Part shown: piece by piece, positions 7,489 to 41,973 of the stretch
Numbering within the stretch: position 1 is the stretch's first letter
Layout of the letters: each line of letters starts with the position of its first letter
NCBI RefSeq assembly: GCF_004341445.1
Contig: NZ_SLXV01000006.1
Coordinates: forward strand, 1 to 64,000
Direction of reading: 5' to 3'
DNA length: 64,000 nt
Origin: Baia soyae
Lineage (GTDB): Bacteria > Bacillota > Bacilli > Thermoactinomycetales > Thermoactinomycetaceae
Made by a program: the position numbers and the translations under genes
Notes under the pieces: generated by a model
Told to the model about the DNA's origin: nothing
The model's input: the letters and a program-made list of their open reading frames with translations, nothing else
Database searches by the model: none

Positions 7489-8184
7489 TTATAACCCTGA
7501 CTCCTCTATCAATTTTTTTATTTTGATATCCTTCTTACGATTACTAGGTATTAAAATTCCTAGGCCTGAGCAAGGAAGCACTTTGTGAAAAGTAAGATTG
7601 AAGCTTGTCTTCTTTAAAAAGTCTTCAATGGCGGTTAAAACTCCGTTCTTTTCACCATTTTCATATAAAGCATTATTTAAGTGATGATTACAACCACCCT
7701 CTACCAATTCAGAAACACCTGGACACATGCCTTTTTGTTCATAAGGCTTTCGATACGCTTCTGGAATTGTCTCAGGCATATAGTACATATCTCGCCTACC
7801 ATACGGCCATTCTGTATCATGAAGAAAAACAAGAGGGAATTTTTCTATTTTTTTTGCTCTACGTTCAATCACACCCAACTCATTAAACACCGTATACCAA
7901 TTATGATCACCATCGATGAGTACTGCATCATATTGGCTGATGTTAGGCAGAGCCATTAAGCTAGTTAAACGTCTCATTTTCATATGACGCTGATAATTCT
8001 TTTTTAGAGCACCCACATGAAACTTGGGATAAGGGTCAATGATATATGCCGTTCCATTCACTTTCCGGCAGTAATCAAGAATTTTTACTGTATTCATCCC
8101 CCCATTAGCGCCAATTTCTACAATCGTTTTCGCCTTTTCCATCCTGAGAATAGGCTTAATCACTTTCTCCCAAAATGGATGCAT
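7489..8184 (-). CDS. Class I SAM-dependent methyltransferase-like protein (Methyltransf_24 type)
   Basis: A 231-residue protein. TIVEIGANGGMNTVKIL (residues 20-36) is the SAM-binding motif I strand and loop, AYIIDPYP near 50 is motif II, and YDAVLIDGDHNWYTVFNEL near 88 is the acidic post-motif typical of Methyltransf_24/cephalosporin-hydroxylase-like proteins. These are often found among glycosyltransferases and may methylate sugars; substrate unknown. LVFLHDTEWPYGRRDMYY carries a conserved His-Asp. The start is ATG 8184 behind AGGGGG; a GTG at 8193 lies too close to the ribosome site. It stands alone between terminators. Confidence 0.72.
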   Translation of the reverse strand: MHPFWEKVIKPILRMEKAKTIVEIGANGGMNTVKILDYCRKVNGTAYIIDPYPKFHVGALKKNYQRHMKMRRLTSLMALPNISQYDAVLIDGDHNWYTVFNELGVIERRAKKIEKFPLVFLHDTEWPYGRRDMYYMPETIPEAYRKPYEQKGMCPGVSELVEGGCNHHLNNALYENGEKNGVLTAIEDFLKKTSFNLTFHKVLPCSGLGILIPSNRKKDIKIKKLIEESGL

Positions 8185-19882: not shown

Positions 19883-21967
19883 TTAACTTACAGACACAGC
19901 TTCTGGTAACAAAGGAGACGGATTATCTGAAGTAAGCACAACGAGTGAGTGGAGGGCACGAGTACATCCAACATAGAGCAGCTTTGCTGTCAGAGCATCA
20001 TCTGGATACTGCTCGTTATCGACGTCAACTAAAATGACTGCATCGAATTCCATCCCTTTTACTAAGTAGATCGGTGCTACTGAGATTCCACCCGCATACT
20101 GGTTTCGATCCGGTGTAATCAAATGATGTTCAGTCCCGTTGGAGAGTAAATCTGCCGATAGTATGGATGCTGCCTTCTCGGTACGAGTCACAACGGCAAT
20201 CGACTTCATTCCTTGAGCGGATTGGTTCTGAATCCATCCCGCTACTGCTAGTGTACGATCTTGATCACGTACTTGCTCCACTTGAACCGGCTCCCCACTA
20301 CGGAATACAGGAGTGGCTGGAGTAAGATTCCCTCGATAAGAGTGAATCACCTGATTGGCAAATTGGATAATTTCCACTGTAGAACGATAACTTCGGTCTA
20401 GCTGAAAATAAGATACCTGTTCCTCTGGAAACAAATGTACAAACTCATTCCAATCGTAAATTCCTTTGTATGCATAAATATTTTGCAATAAATCTCCGAG
20501 AATCGTAAACGAATTCCCTCTCACATGCCCCTTTAATACGTACACTTGAAAGGGAGAAAAATCCTGAGCTTCATCGATAACCACATGATCAAAGCGATGC
20601 TCCGTCTCAATCCCGTAGAGGAAATTGTAAATATATAACAATGGAGCTAGATCTTCTGGATCAAACAGGACCTTTTTCCGTTCGATCGTAAATGGCTGAA
20701 TCACATCGGATTTCTTAGCCAAATCAACATACATTTGGGATACTGTTCGACGATCCCAGAGATTTTTATATTGGCGAAACTTCTCCATCGCTTTTTTCTT
20801 CATCTCATTTCGTGGATCCCGGTTTCGAATATCGCGATGCTCCATCTCAATCCATCTCTTCATTCGAGAGAAGATCCTCTCTTGACGCTTACGCAAAGGT
20901 TCGTGTCGATACTCTACATGGAACCAATGGGAAATTTCTTCAGCCGTCAATTTCTTCTCATCCCAAATGGCAAAACCAACTTGTGGGACAAACCCCTTCT
21001 CCAAAGAAGCTAATTGCTGCTGAAGATACTCCAAAAATACAAAAGAACCCTTATAGCGGGCTAGCATCTCTTGCTGTTCACGTTCCAAATCGGTTGATTG
21101 GCCTGTTTCAAACCAACATTCCTCTCGATCCGTCTGATTCCGTAGGGTTATGGGTTCGGGTAATAAATCGAGTACCCATTCGATGAAAGTAGTCTGCTTA
21201 ACGCCACCAATTCCTAGCTCAGGAAGAACATTCGAGATATAATCCAAGAACATCTTATTAGGAGCAAAGATCATGATGCGATCTGCTCGGACCTGATTCT
21301 GATACTGATACAATAGATATGCTAGACGATGGAGAGCTACCGTAGTTTTCCCTGAACCCGGGACTCCTTGAATAATAAGGGATTGATTCCGCTCAGATCG
21401 GATAATCTTATCTTGTTCCACTTGGATCGTCGAAACAATATCCCTTAATCGATGATCTTTGTTCTCCCCTAGACGATAAAGGAGAAATTCATCTGTAACC
21501 TGTAAATTCTCCCCGCCCCGAACATAACTGTCCACAACTCGTTTTAACGTCTGTTCTTCAACAGCCAAATTCCGCTTTAGATGGATAGTCCCTTCTACCT
21601 CACCATCAGGAGAAACATATCCAGCACGATCTCCTTGCCCCGTAAAAGAGTAAAACATACTGGCCACAGGAGCACGCCAATCAATCACAATGGGTTGATG
21701 ACTATCAGGGTCTTCTACACCCGCTTTTCCTAAATAGAGCGGCGTCAGTTGTTTTCCGTCCTCTTCAAAATCAATGCGGCCGAAATAGGGAGACTTTTCC
21801 GATAACTGCAATCGATTAACCGTTTGCCTCCTCTGATCATCCAGGAGCTGTTCCACCAAATCTGAGCCTTGATATCGTGGAATCAATTGAAGCTCTTTTA
21901 ACTGTTGTTGAATAAAAGAAAGTGTTTCTTGTAACTTCGCTTGCTCATATTGATAGATTTCGTCCAT
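19883..21967 (-). CDS. helD: HelD-like UvrD/Rep-family helicase (RNA polymerase recycling factor type)
   Basis: A 694-residue superfamily 1 ATPase. The N-terminal 150 residues include an initial coiled coil, then PYFGRIDF and PIVIDWRAPVASMFYSF, which mark the HelD branch. Walker A GVPGSGKTTVALHRLAYLLY is near 208, Walker B VIDEAQDFSPFQ near 470, and LDRSYRST near 530 is motif IV. The C-terminal VKGMEFDAVILVDVD and LYVGCTRAL are motifs V and VI. HelD proteins release stalled RNA polymerase from DNA. This one is somewhat shorter than B. subtilis HelD (about 774). Single gene. Confidence 0.82.
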   Translation of the reverse strand: MDEIYQYEQAKLQETLSFIQQQLKELQLIPRYQGSDLVEQLLDDQRRQTVNRLQLSEKSPYFGRIDFEEDGKQLTPLYLGKAGVEDPDSHQPIVIDWRAPVASMFYSFTGQGDRAGYVSPDGEVEGTIHLKRNLAVEEQTLKRVVDSYVRGGENLQVTDEFLLYRLGENKDHRLRDIVSTIQVEQDKIIRSERNQSLIIQGVPGSGKTTVALHRLAYLLYQYQNQVRADRIMIFAPNKMFLDYISNVLPELGIGGVKQTTFIEWVLDLLPEPITLRNQTDREECWFETGQSTDLEREQQEMLARYKGSFVFLEYLQQQLASLEKGFVPQVGFAIWDEKKLTAEEISHWFHVEYRHEPLRKRQERIFSRMKRWIEMEHRDIRNRDPRNEMKKKAMEKFRQYKNLWDRRTVSQMYVDLAKKSDVIQPFTIERKKVLFDPEDLAPLLYIYNFLYGIETEHRFDHVVIDEAQDFSPFQVYVLKGHVRGNSFTILGDLLQNIYAYKGIYDWNEFVHLFPEEQVSYFQLDRSYRSTVEIIQFANQVIHSYRGNLTPATPVFRSGEPVQVEQVRDQDRTLAVAGWIQNQSAQGMKSIAVVTRTEKAASILSADLLSNGTEHHLITPDRNQYAGGISVAPIYLVKGMEFDAVILVDVDNEQYPDDALTAKLLYVGCTRALHSLVVLTSDNPSPLLPEAVSVS

Positions 21968-32779: not shown

Positions 32780-33562
32780 TCAATCTATTCCAGACAAGAC
32801 CTTTAAGCCATCTCCATATTTATGATATACAACCGGCTGGAAATGGGATGGAATTTCTTCTTGAGGGAATCGATGGACATAATGACCTGCGAGTGGATAT
32901 CCAGAATTAAATATCTCGGCAAATGTAGCCGTATGATTAGATAAAACCCACATTTCTGGCGCTAACCAGTCCGACGGCACCGTTCCTGGTAACTGTCTAA
33001 TATAGTGACTATTTGCCCACCAAACATTCCCCGAATAATGGGGTGGGTACGGAGGGTGAAGAAAAAAGTTAATTCCACAAGCGTCCACTTTTTTTAGATA
33101 TTCGAAGCTCACTTCATGATAGTCCACTAATACGGTCTCCATTAAATTAACCCAATCTTCTATACAAGCTTTATTGTGTACCTCACCATGTCTTACTCCT
33201 TTGGAGTGGAGATATAGCACTTCTACATTATTCACACTTGCGCTACTATACTGATGTATCCAATGCAAGGTAGCTCTTTCATACAGATACTCTTCAGGAA
33301 GAATCCTATATTGAACGGTATCATCATAGTGACTAAAGGGATTTATAATTTGATCTTCAATATATTCAGTATTATGAATATCATCCACGACAAAATTAAT
33401 GAAAATAGCATCCACTTTTTCATATAACCCCGATGAGCATAATCTTTCTAGCTTTTTTTCTAATACATCCTTCCAAAAACTCAGAGTACGAACATGAATA
33501 AAGCAAACCTTTTTATGATCCAGATGATATATGTTTTGTTCAGGTGATAAACGAATAGCCAA
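32780..33562 (-). CDS. Unclassified protein with glycosyltransferase-like motifs, paralogue of 6518-7297
   Basis: A 260-residue protein with the same blocks as its paralogue: KVCFIHVRTLSFWKDVL, LCSSGLYEKVDAIFI, YLHSKGVRHGE, HYSGNVWWANSHYI, APEMWVLS and FNSGYPLAGHY. The similarity is continuous from first to last residue, so this is a duplication and not a shared domain. The start is TTG 33562 with AGGAGG 8 bases upstream, and the ribosome-site context (GGAGG-ATGGAAC) is itself conserved with the other copy. Here it stands apart from any glycan gene. Function unknown. Confidence 0.7.
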   Translation of the reverse strand: MAIRLSPEQNIYHLDHKKVCFIHVRTLSFWKDVLEKKLERLCSSGLYEKVDAIFINFVVDDIHNTEYIEDQIINPFSHYDDTVQYRILPEEYLYERATLHWIHQYSSASVNNVEVLYLHSKGVRHGEVHNKACIEDWVNLMETVLVDYHEVSFEYLKKVDACGINFFLHPPYPPHYSGNVWWANSHYIRQLPGTVPSDWLAPEMWVLSNHTATFAEIFNSGYPLAGHYVHRFPQEEIPSHFQPVVYHKYGDGLKVLSGID

Positions 33563-36905: not shown

Positions 36906-36934
36906 GAATAACAAATAAAACCTTATCATACCTT
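36906..36934 (+). promoter_or_regulatory. Candidate sigma-E promoter of the cotJ operon
   Basis: GAATAAC (36906-36912), 14 bases, CATACCTT (36927-36934). This compares with the mother-cell sigma-E consensus KMATATT-N14-CATACAAT. It lies 35 bp before cotJA, and cotJ is a sigma-E operon in B. subtilis. Assigned by eye. Confidence 0.5.
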
Positions 36935-36968: not shown

Positions 36969-37214
36969 TTGAGTCAAAAAGAGCGTTGTCACTTTACACC
37001 TATGAAAACATATGACGTATACCATGGACCCTTTGATCCCTGTCCCCCTATTGGGCATAAATACTACTCTACTCCCCCTCATCTTTATATGGGCTTTCAG
37101 CCCCGTTGCTTGGAGCAATTTCCTATTCGTGAAGCCTTATTTCGTGGGACCTTATGGAAAGAATTATATGATCCTTATGAAAATCCATATCGAAAAAGGG
37201 GGGAACTTCGATGA
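36969..37214 (+). CDS. cotJA: Spore coat-associated protein CotJA
   Basis: An 81-residue protein rich in Pro, Tyr and Cys: DVYHGPFDPCPPIGHKYYSTPP and YMGFQPRCLEQFP, then EALFRGTLWKELYDPYENPY. This is the CotJA pattern. The start is TTG 36969 behind AAGGAGGG. The stop overlaps the cotJB ATG. It is made in the mother cell and lies in the inner coat layers with CotJC; this is family knowledge. Confidence 0.9.
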   Translation: MSQKERCHFTPMKTYDVYHGPFDPCPPIGHKYYSTPPHLYMGFQPRCLEQFPIREALFRGTLWKELYDPYENPYRKRGELR

Positions 37215-37474
37215 ACACTCCCCTACCACCTGAATACTACGAGCTTTTGGAAGAATTACAAGCCGTGGACTTCGCCTTAGTAGAGTTAACCCTTTACCTT
37301 GATACTCACCCAAAAGACATGGATTCCATTCGCCAATTTAACGGATTAGCCAAAAAACGAAAAAAATTAGCTAAAGAATACGAAGCACGATATGGTCCTC
37401 TCTTACAATTTGGTCGTAGTTACTCCGATGAAGATTGGTCCTGGGGAAAGGCTCCTTGGCCTTGGCAGGTATAA
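37211..37474 (+). CDS. cotJB: Spore coat protein CotJB
   Basis: An 87-residue acidic/aromatic protein: PEYYELLEELQAVDFALVELTLYLDTHP, then QFNGLAKKRKKLAKEYEARYGPLLQFG, ending in SWGKAPWPWQV. Sequence and position match CotJB. ATGA overlap with cotJA, and 18 bp to cotJC with GGAGG in between. Confidence 0.92.
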   Translation: MNTPLPPEYYELLEELQAVDFALVELTLYLDTHPKDMDSIRQFNGLAKKRKKLAKEYEARYGPLLQFGRSYSDEDWSWGKAPWPWQV

Positions 37475-37492: not shown

Positions 37493-37726
37493 ATGTGGGT
37501 ATATGAGAAAAAACTGCAATATCCCGTAAAAGTAAGTACATGCAATCCCTATCTAGCAAAACTACTGGTTGAACAATACGGCGGAGCCGATGGCGAACTC
37601 GCCGCAGCACTCCGCTATCTCAATCAACGATACACCATCCCCGATAAAGTGGTTGGACTACTAACCGATATCGGCACAGAAGAATTCGCTCATTTAGAAA
37701 TGATTGCTACCATGATTTATAAATAA
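37493..37726 (+). CDS. cotJC: cotJC, 5' part (codons 1-77), interrupted by the element
   Basis: First 77 residues of CotJC, a manganese-catalase-family coat protein of about 189 residues. It contains GADGELAAALRYLNQRY (metal-ligand Glu 35 by analogy) and GTEEFAHLEMIATMIYK (Glu 64, His 67). After AAA at 37721-37723 the frame hits TAA at once, where the inserted element begins. The rest is at 41635-41973. Splicing at the shared TAAA (37720-37723 = 41631-41634) restores the frame exactly: ...MIYK + LTKDATPEQ.... Ribosome site AAGGAGG precedes the ATG. Without excision only a stump lacking half the metal site could be made. Confidence 0.93.
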   Translation: MWVYEKKLQYPVKVSTCNPYLAKLLVEQYGGADGELAAALRYLNQRYTIPDKVVGLLTDIGTEEFAHLEMIATMIYK

Positions 37727-37746
37727 ATAATTTCTTTTCAGCAACT
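37705..37746. other. Left attachment site (attL-like) in cotJC
   Basis: Core TAAA at 37720-37723, with cotJC codons to the left and the element arm 37727-37746 to the right. That arm matches the reverse complement of 41608-41627 at 14 of 20 positions. Confidence 0.75.
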
Positions 37747-37756
37747 AATCATTTAT

Positions 37757-37793
37757 AAAAAACAGAGCATCAACATTTCATTGATTTGCTCTG
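37757..37793 (-). terminator. Terminator at the left end of the element
   Basis: CAGAGCA/TGCTCTG stem (37787-37793/37763-37769) extended by ATCAA/TTGAT, with a six-T tail on the minus strand. The upstream arm lies inside the last codons of the 49-codon ORF. Confidence 0.75.
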
Positions 37794-37919
37794 CAATAAT
37801 AGGCGGACCAGTTTCTCCATATCAAGTGAACCGTAAACTCTAACCGTTCCCTTATCCTCAATTATTTCTTCAAACGTTATGGGCTTATCTTTTAAGAGTT
37901 CTTCTATTCGGTTGTCCAT
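37770..37919 (-). CDS. 49-aa protein in the element, possible recombination helper
   Basis: A 49-residue ORF: it begins MDNRIEELLKDKPITFEEII and ends VRLLLQSKSMKC. TAGGAG lies 9 bases before the ATG and a good terminator overlaps its end, so it looks like a real small gene. It is charged and mostly helical, with a short beta segment (GTVRVYGSL). I do not recognise it. Its size and place next to the left attachment site resemble the recombination directionality factor SprB of SP-beta (58 residues), but there is no sequence evidence of that function. Confidence 0.55.
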   Translation of the reverse strand: MDNRIEELLKDKPITFEEIIEDKGTVRVYGSLDMEKLVRLLLQSKSMKC

Positions 37920-38021
37920 AACAACCAGCTCCTATAGTAGGTTCGATTTAATGTATTAGTGATTTGGATTGTCTTATTACTACGAACTGTTAATCGGTAA
38001 ATGGATCCCTATTAGACACAG

Positions 38022-38049
38022 AAAAGGATCCCTTTTTCCTAAGGAATCC
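38022..38049 (-). terminator. Possible terminator after the 270-aa gene
   Basis: GGATTCC...GGATCC hairpin with one bulge followed by TTTTC on the minus strand, 36 bp past the stop at 38085. Confidence 0.35.
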
Positions 38050-38084
38050 AATGGGGATGCAAAATATCGGGTAATGGAGTGAAG

Positions 38085-38897
38085 CTATACATTAATAGAA
38101 ACCTGTTTGTACTCTTCTGTTTGTATGCCTACAAGGAGATCGTTTTGGACAACTTCTTTTTCAGTAAACAAATGCTCACAATCTAATTCAAAATCAATTG
38201 AGGGATTCGTATTTCGGCAATGATATTTAAATTTAGGTCGGTGAGCAGGCCACGCAACCATTCGGAGATCAATCAACTCAACAAATGTGTTACCAATGGA
38301 GTCCTGAATAGTTATGTCAAACTCCCAAGAGATAGTGCCATTGCACTTACTCTGTAGTGAAGTATATGGAGAGTCTAAGTTTGTCCTTGCTTGTGCAAAT
38401 TTCATTTGGGCACTGGTAAGCTTGTCTTTTGTTATGTGGAAATCATGTAGTTCAAACATTTGCATAGAGAAATTTATTAATTCTCCGGGTGGTAACAAAA
38501 TTGGAAATGGATCATATACATTCGGCTTGCCTTCAAAAAAATAAGATGTACCAATGGTGCATTCTACAAGATTTATAGGAACTACTCCTATATTGGTTAT
38601 TGTCACCAAAAGTATACGGTATTTTTGTTTTCCAAACTCATGTTCCTCAATAACTGGACGTATAGCTATTCGTGGTTCGCTCGCAGCAGCAGTCATTTTT
38701 CTTTGTTCTTCTAATTGTCTAAGAGCAAGTTCTCTTTGCTCATTCATTTGTAACATAGCAATTTGTTTACTTTCCTCGGTCTGTTTTAGTACCACTTTCA
38801 CTTGTCTAAAACCTACGTATACTGCCAGTACGGTTCCTATTGCACCCGCCCATTGACCGATTGCGCTCCACCAATCGGGATCTTTATACCAACTCAT
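38085..38897 (-). CDS. Membrane-anchored coiled-coil protein of unknown function (element cargo)
   Basis: A 270-residue protein. A single membrane helix lies near 10-30 (WSAIGQWAGAIGTVLAVYVGF), followed by a Gln/Glu/Lys-rich coiled coil (about 31-70). A soluble beta-rich domain from 75 to the end (EPRIAIRPVIEEHEFGKQKYRILLVTITNIGVVPINLVECTI is split between strands) has an Ig-like feel. I do not recognise a family. It is the largest cargo gene of the cotJC element. GGAGGAAG precedes the ATG, so it is probably expressed. No catalytic motif is visible. Confidence 0.6.
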   Translation of the reverse strand: MSWYKDPDWWSAIGQWAGAIGTVLAVYVGFRQVKVVLKQTEESKQIAMLQMNEQRELALRQLEEQRKMTAAASEPRIAIRPVIEEHEFGKQKYRILLVTITNIGVVPINLVECTIGTSYFFEGKPNVYDPFPILLPPGELINFSMQMFELHDFHITKDKLTSAQMKFAQARTNLDSPYTSLQSKCNGTISWEFDITIQDSIGNTFVELIDLRMVAWPAHRPKFKYHCRNTNPSIDFELDCEHLFTEKEVVQNDLLVGIQTEEYKQVSINV

Positions 38898-39107
38898 ATG
38901 CTTCCTCCGAAAAAGGATTGTTTTTACACATTCTACTTTATTTAATTTCTAATAACAATGAAATTTCTAATTATAATCTTATAAATTATAACTCGAGATG
39001 AGCAAATTCACTGGAAATAATTTACAAATGATCAAAAAGAAAGACATGGTACCCCCTGTGTAGAAGTTAGTGGTTCCCGCCAAATAACTTTGTGAAGGAG
39101 ATAAAAC

Positions 39108-39649
39108 ATGTCTCGTAACGTCAGACTACCACATCACGAAACAATCAACCAGTACTTACAGAGAAAGAAATTCAATTTATATTACAGTAAACCTGCTTTG
39201 GAGCATATGATTCATTTCATAGATGGCGTGACGCAAAAAGGTTTTTCAGGGACACTTACAGATATTCATGGCTCCAGCCATGATTGCACCATCGCACCAC
39301 TTTAGGGCATTTTCTTCAACACGGAAAATGGCAAGAAGATTGGCTTCTTAAAAAATCTCAAAGTGATGTGTTACGTCAGATCTACAAAGAAGCAGAACAA
39401 ACGTAATTCCCCATCCATGTAACTGTTGATGATACCCTCTGCAAGAAGACAAAGCCTTCGTCACAGGCGACGTCGTCCATTCCAAATGCTGAGTTTCACT
39501 TCTCCCATAAAGAAGGGCGTTGCATCTGGAGTCATCAAGTTATTGTCGTACTTTTCCAATGCGGAAAACTCCGTCTTCCTTACGCTTTTCTACGATATGA
39601 TAAAGCTGGAAAAAGCAAAATTGATCTTGTGTGCGATTTGCAGGCATGA
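39108..39649 (+). pseudogene. Degenerate DDE transposase (IS4/IS701-like), truncated
   Basis: Intact ribosome site and ATG, then about 57 residues (HHETINQYLQRKKFNLYYSK, LTDIHGSSH). An 11-bp insertion at 39282-39292 shifts the frame, and the next part reads HRTTLGHFLQHGKWQEDWLL. After a stop near 39403 come PIHVTVDDTLCKKTKPSSQA and FHFSHKEGRCIWSHQVIVVLFQCGKLRLPYAFLRYDKAGKSK, split in normal family order, then a stop at 39647. VDDT holds the first catalytic Asp. The C-terminal half of a normal transposase is missing. No terminal inverted repeats were found. Confidence 0.75.
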
Positions 39650-39769
39650 TCGAATGGATTTATTCGCAATGCCGTTTAGGCATTCCGCTTAGTTGTATAA
39701 AAAAGCAACTGAATGCGGCCTAGCCGTAGTCTGTCTATTGGAACTGGATATTTCTGTTAGCAGATTCGC

Positions 39770-39988
39770 TCATCTCGAGTTAATTATATGATTCAAGCAT
39801 ATGAAGCCGTAGTGTAAGAATGGACCTGGATAATCATTAGAAGCAAATGTATGAACTGAAATAAAGTCTTCAGGAATTTCACTTGCTTTATGTCTACTAA
39901 AGTACATACTGAGTGTATTTGTTTCAAATTCAGTTAGCCCATTGAATTCGATATACTCCTTTATCCCCAACAAATCTTTGTATTTCAA
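39770..39988 (-). CDS. 72-aa hypothetical protein in the element
   Basis: A 72-residue ORF starting at TTG 39988 with GAGGT 6 bases upstream. It contains KYKDLLGIKEYIEFNGLTEF and a C-terminal YPGPFLHYGFICLNHII. Not recognised. It follows the recombinase gene by 77 bp on the same strand, beyond that gene's terminator. It could be a second candidate for a small recombination accessory protein, or a remnant. Confidence 0.4.
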   Translation of the reverse strand: MKYKDLLGIKEYIEFNGLTEFETNTLSMYFSRHKASEIPEDFISVHTFASNDYPGPFLHYGFICLNHIINSR

Positions 39989-40024
39989 TTTTGTACCTCA
40001 TTTCAATCCTGTAGAGCTGTTATA

Positions 40025-40050
40025 TCAAAAAAGCGTGACTAAAATCACGC
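40025..40050 (-). terminator. Terminator after the serine recombinase gene
   Basis: GCGTGATTTTAGTCACGC on the minus strand followed by six T, 16 bp past the stop at 40066. Confidence 0.8.
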
Positions 40051-40065
40051 CTCATTCTGCTCTCA

Positions 40066-41553
40066 TCACTTCATAACAATTTTTATATCAAATTCTTTAC
40101 CGATCTTAGTATACACGATAACTTCTACCAACTCTCTTAAAATCGTGTTCACTTCACGTTCTGGAAGTTTGTCTCCGTGCGTGAGGAATCGACTCATTTT
40201 CTCAAGTGTTACTTCCACTCTGTCTAACTCTGTGATATTTCCTTGTTCTTTGAGCTCATCGACTTGCTCCTCTAGTGTCTTGATCTGTTGTTTGGCTTGG
40301 TAAATTTGCTCTCTTGCCTCACCCTGTGTGAAAATCTCCAACATGAACCCTTGTTGAATTCGTTTAATATCGTTATTTAACTTTGTAATTTGTTTTTGCT
40401 TTGATTCTAGCTCTTGTGTATAGTCTGGTGAATCGTTCAAATCATGTTCTCTTATCAAACCAACGTACTGTTCTAGCTGTTTTACATGCTGGGAGAAATA
40501 CATATAGAATAGCTCTTCAAACTGCGACAGCTTTGCTCCACTGTTTTTGCAAACGGTGTAATCATCCCCACTACTATATATCCTCGTTTGACAAGATGCG
40601 ATCCGCTTACCTCCGTATCTACTCCCTTGAAATGAATGAATGGCCCCACATAGACCACAGCGAATCAGTCCGCTAAACTTATGCTTTCCTAGTCTCAATG
40701 ATGGTGGTCTACTATTTCGATCTTTCTTTAGCTGTTGAACTTGATTAAATAGCTCTTGAGATACAATGGATTCGTGCGTATTCTCAACTAAAATCTGCTC
40801 GGATTTATCTGCATATGTTATGGTACGTCTTCCATCAACCGTCTTTTGGATTGTCTTTCCATATAAAGAGTGTCCAGCATACACAACATTGGAAAGCAAT
40901 CTTGACACACTAGCAGAAGACCACAGCATATTCATTGTGGTTTTGACTGTTTCCTGTGTGAACTTATACGCTATATCCTTAGTAGACAGTCCAGCTATGT
41001 ACAGGTCAAACATTTCCTTCATAACGGGGGCATCTTCTGAGACTTCTAACCGCTTGGTATCTCGATTATATTTGTATCCAATCGGAGATTTTTTCCCTAA
41101 CCAGTTACCATCACGGGCTGATTGCCTAGATCCTCTAATAAGACGAGCTTTGATTTTCTGGTATTCTTGCTTAGAAAGAACACTTTGAATATCCGAGATA
41201 AAATCATCATCGTCTTTTCTAAAGTCGTATACTCTCGAAGGAGTAACAAATAAGCAACCTGCATTCACTAAGATTTGTTTTATTTGATCTAAATGACCTA
41301 CACTACGACTCAAACGGTCTTGGTCGGCAGAAACAACGGCATCATAATGAAAAAGTTTGATTCTTGAAATCATCTTTTGAAGTTCTGGTCGATCGAGTTC
41401 TTGAGAACTTCCGACCTCTTTATAAACATCATATTTCCAATGGTTACGTTCGCATAAATCAATAAGAACAGATTGTTGTCGTTGTAAAGTGTCTTCGGTT
41501 TCTTCTTCTCTAGACTTACGAACATATACAGCAACTATTTTCTTTGCTTCCAT
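40066..41553 (-). CDS. Large serine recombinase (SpoIVCA-like) of the cotJC element
   Basis: A 495-residue recombinase. Resolvase domain 5-150: AVYVRKSREEETEDTLQRQ with catalytic Ser 14, and DRLSR at 79-83. Recombinase domain 155-275 (SPIGYKYNRDTKRLEV, VSRLLSNVVYAGHSLYG). Zinc ribbon C299/C302/C321/C335 (RCGLCGA ... CQTRIYSSGDDYTVCK). Coiled coil about 365-445. Size and domain order match SpoIVCA of the sigK skin element (about 500 residues). It should cut and rejoin the two TAAA sites to release the element. The gene starts 78 bp inside the right end; I could not find a convincing sigma-E or sigma-K promoter there. It looks fully intact. Confidence 0.93.
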   Translation of the reverse strand: MEAKKIVAVYVRKSREEETEDTLQRQQSVLIDLCERNHWKYDVYKEVGSSQELDRPELQKMISRIKLFHYDAVVSADQDRLSRSVGHLDQIKQILVNAGCLFVTPSRVYDFRKDDDDFISDIQSVLSKQEYQKIKARLIRGSRQSARDGNWLGKKSPIGYKYNRDTKRLEVSEDAPVMKEMFDLYIAGLSTKDIAYKFTQETVKTTMNMLWSSASVSRLLSNVVYAGHSLYGKTIQKTVDGRRTITYADKSEQILVENTHESIVSQELFNQVQQLKKDRNSRPPSLRLGKHKFSGLIRCGLCGAIHSFQGSRYGGKRIASCQTRIYSSGDDYTVCKNSGAKLSQFEELFYMYFSQHVKQLEQYVGLIREHDLNDSPDYTQELESKQKQITKLNNDIKRIQQGFMLEIFTQGEAREQIYQAKQQIKTLEEQVDELKEQGNITELDRVEVTLEKMSRFLTHGDKLPEREVNTILRELVEVIVYTKIGKEFDIKIVMK

Positions 41554-41607
41554 TCCCTAACCCCTTGTTGCTTAATAGTTTAATTTGCATGATTACTATA
41601 ACAGAAT

Positions 41608-41650
41608 AGTATCAAAAAAGGAATAATCTGTAAACTAACAAAGGACGCCA
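41608..41650. other. Right attachment site (attR-like) in cotJC
   Basis: Element arm 41608-41627, three bases CTG, core TAAA at 41631-41634, then cotJC codon 78 onward (CTA ACA AAG). Together with the left end it gives a palindromic attP: arm, 3 bases, TAAA, 3 bases, arm. Confidence 0.75.
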
Positions 41651-41973
41651 CTCCAGAGCAATTAAAAGCCGCGGGGCTTGATTCGCATTATGTGGCCCAT
41701 GATAGTGCCTTATTTTACAATAATTCTGCTGGCGTACCCTTTACAGCCGCTTATATACAAGCGAAGGGTGATCCTATCGCTGACTTGTATGAGGATATCG
41801 CTGCGGAGGAGAAGGCACGGGCGACTTATCAGTGGATTATCGATCAATCGGATGATCCCGATCTAAATGACTCCCTGAAGTTTTTAAGGGAAAGAGAAAT
41901 CGTCCACTCCCAACGCTTCCGAGAGGCTGTGGATATTTTGAAGGATGAGCGGGGGAAAAAGAAGATCTTTTGA
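41635..41973 (+). CDS. cotJC: cotJC, 3' part (codons 78-189)
   Basis: C-terminal 112 residues of CotJC: LTKDATPEQLKAAGLDSHYV, PFTAAYIQAKGDPIADLYED, AAEEKARATYQ, LREREIVHSQRF. By analogy with manganese catalases the remaining metal ligands (Glu near 136 and His 168 of the joined protein) lie here. There is no ribosome site or sensible start at its beginning; an internal ATG at 41692 is not preceded by one either. It is in frame with the 5' part after joining at TAAA. The sequence shows no decay, which argues the gene is still used. Confidence 0.92.
   Translation, partial: LTKDATPEQLKAAGLDSHYVAHDSALFYNNSAGVPFTAAYIQAKGDPIADLYEDIAAEEKARATYQWIIDQSDDPDLNDSLKFLREREIVHSQRFREAVDILKDERGKKKIF

Follow-up and report, generated by a model that had tools for sequence, protein, structure and literature searches.

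Few sporulation genes have been described as split by an excisable element, and the pertinent sections of the published accounts name sigK, spsM, spoVFB, spoVR, gerE, and yabG as the genes concerned. For example, the section of one report that deals with SP-beta, which splits spsM, states that SprA and the 58-amino-acid (aa) SprB suffice for its excision and that a minimal laboratory element carrying only sprA and sprB excises as well (PMC4191935), and the gin element in gerE of Bacillus cereus is described, in the part of its report that treats excision, as being excised by the serine recombinase GirC with the 42-aa GirX (PMC5595907). The skin elements of Bacillus subtilis and Clostridioides difficile occupy different sites in opposite orientation and are taken, in the passage that compares them, as independent events (PMC5025042). 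Here we describe a related arrangement in Baia soyae (assembly GCF_004341445.1), where, within the first 64,000 nucleotides (nt) of contig NZ_SLXV01000006.1 (the whole stretch analyzed, hereafter the window), the spore-coat gene cotJC is divided by a 3.9-kb element that encodes a large serine recombinase. Comparison with related genomes makes it very probable that this insertion is a sporulation-gene intervening element of the skin and SP-beta kind, excised in the mother cell; excision itself, and its timing during sporulation, are what we infer. Mechanistically it belongs with systems already described, though in a gene not among theirs, and the new part lies in the recurrence at one codon, the minimal size, and the use of two machineries.

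No published cotJC split was found in the open-access PMC literature, preprints being outside the scope of that search. The word "cotJ" is absent from the main texts of the two reports on the elements in spoVFB and spoVR (PMC6957869, PMC10747680), and a survey of serine recombinases contains none of "cotJ", "catalase", or "spore coat" in its main text (PMC10083194).

A first-pass annotation, made from the letters of the window alone, had proposed that cotJC is divided at codon 77/78 with a shared TAAA, and its coordinates proved right: when 3,911 bp are deleted between the TAAA at 37720 and the TAAA at 41631, an open frame of 189 codons results, and both halves match the manganese-catalase family (Mn_catalase, PF05067) to which the target had been assigned. 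Taken alone, the open joined frame is weak evidence, and such frames are common nearby (672 of 3,600 breakpoint pairs give one); the 4-bp repeat taken alone is trivial. Chance is excluded by the exact 189-codon fit, by an intact cotJC in a genome of the same genus (G002) that aligns across the site (99% identical protein, 85.4% identity over 1,181 nt), and by the same split in 13 further genomes. An assembly or contamination artefact could appeal to the draft state of the genome, in 92 contigs, and to one relative (G001) in which the cotJC halves lie on two different contigs, but both halves share one contig in the window and in 12 other assemblies, and we give this explanation practically no weight. 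A second intact cotJC, which together with a silent divided copy would have spoken against the first-pass annotation, was looked for by a family search of the bacterium's own genome (99% complete), and none was found beyond the two halves.

The same insertion point recurs among relatives, alongside uninterrupted genes. In a sample of 23 Thermoactinomycetaceae genomes, 21 have a cotJC match (G008, which is 68% complete, and G009 have none), and in 14 of these species the gene is divided at one shared codon, Lys77, while in seven it is intact. Across the order a match (E 1e-25) is present in 36 of 42 genomes, and all 15 outside the family carry the gene in one piece. Each of the 14 split loci rejoins at codon 76/77 with an open frame and repeats of 4–12 bp, the joined length being 189 codons in 13 loci and 188 in G016; G004 and G017 also contain a longer repeat, present at another place by chance, that would give a join of 179 codons, whereas the join at codon 77 yields 189. 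The distance between halves ranges from 2.6 kb (G013) to 55 kb (G015), and split and intact species are intermixed inside four genera. When the element ends were joined and 24 centers tried per element, the best dyad was in all 14 cases centered on the AA that opens the Lys77 codon, so this AA is the likely crossover dinucleotide. Beyond the family, cotJC matches (E 1e-30) occur in 99 of 151 sampled genomes of the class, 93 of them outside Thermoactinomycetaceae. One of these (G113) is clearly split at about codon 62–67, with halves 53.5 kb apart (C1:2034823-2088879; L139, L140) and a type-2-like recombinase (see below) near the N half; cotJC thus has a second insertion site, used in a different family. 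Of the others, two are incomplete (G049 lies at a contig end, and G082 has the N part only) and 90 are unbroken, distant homologues among them. As a separate observation, G007 carries a frameshifted relic of the cotJC C-terminal part about 5 kb past the C-half in use (L146, C31:348509-348673).

Such a distribution could also arise if the insertion were a conventional integrative element with a conserved gene for its attachment site: the coat gene, being dispensable, would simply be inactivated, no excision would be programmed, and the halves would look intact because the insertions are recent and turn over. Elements do come and go, as shown by the mixture of split and intact species in four genera and by the partial Mantel agreement given below, but three observations run against this explanation and lead us to regard it as unlikely. 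The joined frames are open in all 14 loci. Secondly, the elements of G004 and G017 are collinear and 93% identical at the nucleotide level, the same as their flanks, so that cotJC has been split since their common ancestor, and yet these two genes differ by 25 synonymous and 0 nonsynonymous changes; between G000 and G001, 56 synonymous changes accompany a single replacement. In these two unsaturated split pairs both cotJC halves are thus under strong purifying selection, in agreement with the earlier statement that neither half has decayed. Thirdly, halves that are not needed do decay: as a natural control, G012, which has an intact cotJC, also has a displaced second C-half about 6 kb downstream (L082, C23, reverse-complement 7872-8164) that is degraded by an internal stop, a frameshift, and the loss of 19 codons. 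Ahead of this displaced C-half is a sequence that can be aligned to the right attachment (att) arm of the G021 element, and between the displaced half and the intact gene lie three large open reading frames (ORFs), which look like a gerA-type germination operon.

The intactness of both halves would likewise be expected if CotJC were assembled from two polypeptides and the DNA were never excised. In favor of this, there is an in-frame ATG close to the start of the C half of G113, and the C half of G013 opens with TTG; in the window, a sigma-70-like match immediately precedes the C half, although at chance frequency (two found against 1.1 expected). The window C half, however, has no possible start codon before GTG 41692, 19 codons into its 112, and the tails that the N halves read into the element vary between elements; we consider a two-piece CotJC highly improbable. 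Excision of an intervening element, the reading preferred here, calls for a recombinase and for a factor that turns it toward excision, and candidates for both are found.

A large serine recombinase is present in each of the 14 cotJC elements, of which those of G001 and G015 are covered in part (two ends only of the 55-kb G015 element). In the window, the intact 495-aa enzyme noted in the first-pass annotation, starting 78 bp inside the right copy of the repeat, has the Resolvase, Recombinase, and Zn_ribbon_recom domains in one protein, all above the Pfam cut-off. SprA/YokA of SP-beta is its closest solved structure (PDB search, E 2e-28), and the ratio of nonsynonymous to synonymous substitution rates (dN/dS) between the window and G001 is 0.06. 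Two lineages can be distinguished: type 1 comprises the enzymes of the window, G001 (93% identical), and G013 (80%), and type 2 the other 11, which are 49–96% identical among themselves, the two types sharing 26–33% identity in local alignments. Type 1 is rare (3 of 398 class genomes at 66% identity or more, the window's included and G001 outside that sample), one of the three, that of G059, being a broken copy that lies at the end of a contig and has no close cotJC. The family around type 2 is large, 61 of 398 class genomes having a match (E 1e-90). No close relative of the recombinase was found among phages (the 66 matching records at E 1e-20 are all below 60% identity) or by a pattern search for close relatives in IMG/VR. 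Recombinase distances agree in part with those of the host protein RpoB (Mantel r 0.43, p 0.002, 11 genomes; 0.34, p 0.038, 10 genomes, one of a near-identical pair being dropped; the RpoB of G010, very long and unusual in composition and presumably read in a wrong frame, distorts the drawn tree but is outside the test). Because this agreement is partial and split and intact species are mixed within genera, the elements seem to have been inherited by descent as well as re-acquired.

The 2.63-kb type-1 element of G013 (L072) is wholly inverted with respect to the window element (37720-41634), the recombinase lying beside the N half and a 49-aa ORF beside the C half, with the att arms swapped. 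The two thus occupy one site in opposite orientations although the inferred crossover dinucleotide AA is non-palindromic; a palindromic TA core, considered as the reason for the flipped element, was rejected given the AA dyad center in all 14.

The second conserved component is a tiny ORF, found alongside the recombinase in 13 of the 14 elements (three of three type 1, 10 of 11 type 2); in type 2 it encodes 47–69 aa and is divergent from the recombinase, start codons being assumed. Other cargo genes are common only to subsets, for example everything in G004 and G017, in a shared-gene comparison covering six of the 11 type-2 elements. Relatives of the small ORF, some of them weak matches, also lie within the 4.5-kb locus of 13 of the 15 other type-2 relatives examined, from a total of 24. 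Values of dN/dS for the small ORF range from 0.07 to 0.14 in the five pairs measured, and the window and G013 versions are separated by 20 synonymous and 16 nonsynonymous differences (dN/dS 0.10). No small ORF tested matches a Pfam family above the cut-off or has a meaningful PDB match, the window ORF lacking any Pfam match even at E 1, and comparison with PHROGs gave weak matches only, to groups of unknown or unrelated function. The tiny ORF is a predicted recombination directionality factor, in keeping with SprA and SprB or GirC and GirX, where one recombinase and one very small protein are enough. Descent from SprB/YotN was considered for these proteins and dropped, the two tested having no sequence match.

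The -10 boxes recognized by sigma-E and sigma-K begin with CATA. This motif stands at -24 to -28 before eight of 14 small ORFs (11 type 2, the sigK one included, and three type 1), as against four of 201 mechanical ORFs of at least 150 aa. In G018 and G016 it is found at -16 from the assumed start, in G001 only at -59, and in G004, G017, and the window not within 60 nt upstream; the window has AATACATT at -38. For sprB, the relevant section of the SP-beta report likewise gives a mother-cell promoter with a -10 box of the CATA type (PMC4191935).

Two further split points occur in a sporulation gene of the same genome, where two tandem elements divide sigK into three pieces on contig C30 (L137, L138): codons up to ...CIENEILM (1947-2327), an internal segment some 28 codons long (20542-20626), and the remainder from 33065 (33065-33358). 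Joins at GAGATCTTGATG and at AATGA, which take out 18.2 kb and 12.4 kb, give an open frame of 248 codons that reads as SigK from end to end, although alternative joins of the second pair are also open and leave its exact core less certain. A recombinase of the type-2 family and a small divergent ORF are present in the second element, and the recombinase of the first is presumably SpoIVCA-like. Sigma-K is required for late sporulation, as established in B. subtilis, and a prophage is reportedly integrated in sigK of Alicyclobacillus. With three split points in one genome and sigma-K needed late in sporulation, a developmental role becomes the more natural reading. Elsewhere in this genome, a 492-aa serine recombinase adjoins an ORF that ends at 114 aa (C18:9270-9698, L008); the latter, which we take to be HAD-phosphatase-like, is possibly another element-split gene.

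Taken together, the single cotJC, the purifying selection, the conserved recombinase and tiny ORF, the CATA boxes before some of these ORFs, and SprA/YokA as closest structure support the skin-like interpretation of the first-pass annotation. In such a mechanism, sigma-E or sigma-K would turn on the tiny ORF in the mother cell, and its product would make the recombinase excise instead of integrate; recombination between attL and attR would then take place at the AA of the Lys77 codon, and the operon promoter would read through the whole of cotJABC. The spore chromosome would retain the element, which would therefore be inherited. More broadly, we think it likely that Lys77 is a family-wide landing site at which two recombinase lineages have each settled with elements that are excised during development, the window's lineage in both orientations. 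The forms of 2.6–3.9 kb would be natural two-gene units, in which a recombinase is paired with a tiny, mother-cell-controlled excision factor; the requirement that the gene be rejoined would keep them in place, making them in effect a DNA-level intron, and one genome would have three such elements (two in sigK, one in cotJC).

Several observations weigh on the other side. The seven species whose cotJC carries no element mean that an element there is not needed, and saturation of synonymous sites in most split pairs leaves few on which the selection test can rest. One type-2 element (G003) yielded no small ORF, and in G017 about 2.5 kb separate this ORF from the recombinase; the predicted fold of the window ORF is poor (predicted local distance difference test score, pLDDT, 64), and neither this ORF nor that of G020 matched the YokA-YotN fusion when searched, by sequence only, with phmmer against PDB chains that include it. 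CATA is missing from the tested interval before six of the 14 small ORFs. Sigma-E sites with the score of the one before the 49-aa ORF occur in the window at 0.46 per kb per strand, and a consensus scan gave 59 sites of score at least 13 on both strands, many by chance; with related rows not independent and chance sites common, the promoter evidence for the small ORFs is modest and suggestive.

No phage structural or lysis genes were found when four ORFs of the window element were compared with PHROGs (E 0.01), the recombinase being the sole match. With a recombinase, a small ORF, and little cargo, this element is close to a natural minimal unit. An insertion-sequence relic was considered for 39000-39760 and rejected, as this stretch has no Pfam match and its copies are only fragmentary. 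Upstream, a sigma-E-like sequence (GAATAAC-N14-CATACCTT) is located at 36906, ahead of cotJA, and G013 has a comparable 87-aa ORF directly upstream of cotJC, as the window has with cotJB; we assign the names cotJA and cotJB from the B. subtilis operon order. The features are collected below.

Features of the cotJ region and its element (positions in the window; cotJA and cotJB as assumed names)
Feature	Position	Strand	Basis
cotJA, leading gene of cotJABC (start inferred)	37002..37214	+	ORF
cotJB	37211..37474	+	87-aa ORF
cotJC N-terminal half, 77 codons, then element-derived TAA	37493..37726	+	Mn_catalase PF05067, E 2e-35
TAAA core copy, attL	37720..37723	+	join and dyad analysis
49-aa ORF, candidate recombination directionality factor	37770..37919	-	conserved in G001 (94%), G013 (73%)
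sigma-E-like promoter of 49-aa ORF, TAATAAG-N15-AATACATT	37950..37979	-	equal spacing upstream in G001, G013
270-aa ORF, cargo	38085..38897	-	no Pfam, PHROG or PADLOC match at thresholds used
degenerate stretch, no gene identified	39000..39760	.	only fragmentary matches elsewhere in genome; 65-aa ORF without Pfam match
72-aa ORF	39770..39988	-	no Pfam or PHROG match
large serine recombinase, 495 aa, type 1	40066..41553	-	Pfam; PHROG integrase; PDB YokA/SprA E 2e-28
TAAA core copy, attR	41631..41634	+	join and dyad analysis
cotJC C-terminal half, codons 78-189 and stop	41635..41973	+	PF05067, E 7e-36

Cargo was also observed in other cotJC elements. That of G004 (L067, 1422-2300) includes an AbiEii-type nucleotidyltransferase (PADLOC E 3.5e-134), a possible defence gene, and that of G003 (L066, 2901-5555) an 884-aa PPDK_N/PEP-utilizer protein. 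In G021 (L079, 3809-6571), with relatives in G022 (L080), the cargo consists of an Asn-synthase, a PCMT methyltransferase, and ORFs of 85 and 120 aa, a set that may represent a lasso-peptide cluster.

With these elements, a gene for a coat enzyme would join the small group of sporulation genes that DNA excision is known to rebuild, and they show that two divergent machineries can colonize one codon repeatedly within a family. Species that have an element and species that lack one, tiny natural forms, and a decayed displaced half together offer a system for studying element fixation, excision timing, and host benefit, and the two pairs of recombinase and small ORF are candidates for compact, reversible recombination tools.

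Compared with the described systems, the cotJC element shares with SP-beta in spsM a large serine recombinase, a small partner protein, and a split sporulation gene. It differs in the gene concerned, in a recombinase only 25.9% identical to the phi3T and phi3T/SP-beta hybrid enzymes, in having no recognized phage genes, and in a partner not detectably homologous to SprB by sequence. The phi027 prophage of C. difficile adjoins a cotJC homologue, a 678-bp ORF downstream of attR; in the portion of the report that covers it, this neighbor is not described as split, and two other cotJC-type genes are named (PMC11222575). The gin element is similar in combining a serine recombinase and a tiny factor with a lack of phage genes but, from the relevant part of its description, is 28.6 kb long, has three recombinases, and lies in a different gene (PMC5595907). 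Vfbin in spoVFB and the spoVR element (PMC6957869, PMC10747680), and yin in yabG, also split mother-cell or sporulation genes, although other ones. The skin elements in sigK of B. subtilis and of C. difficile, the latter with the recombination directionality factor CD1234, resemble the cotJC element in architecture and inferred role; skin, however, splits the gene of a sigma factor, whereas cotJC is the gene of a coat enzyme, and the cotJC elements, in contrast to the skins, have opposite orientations at one site with related recombinases.

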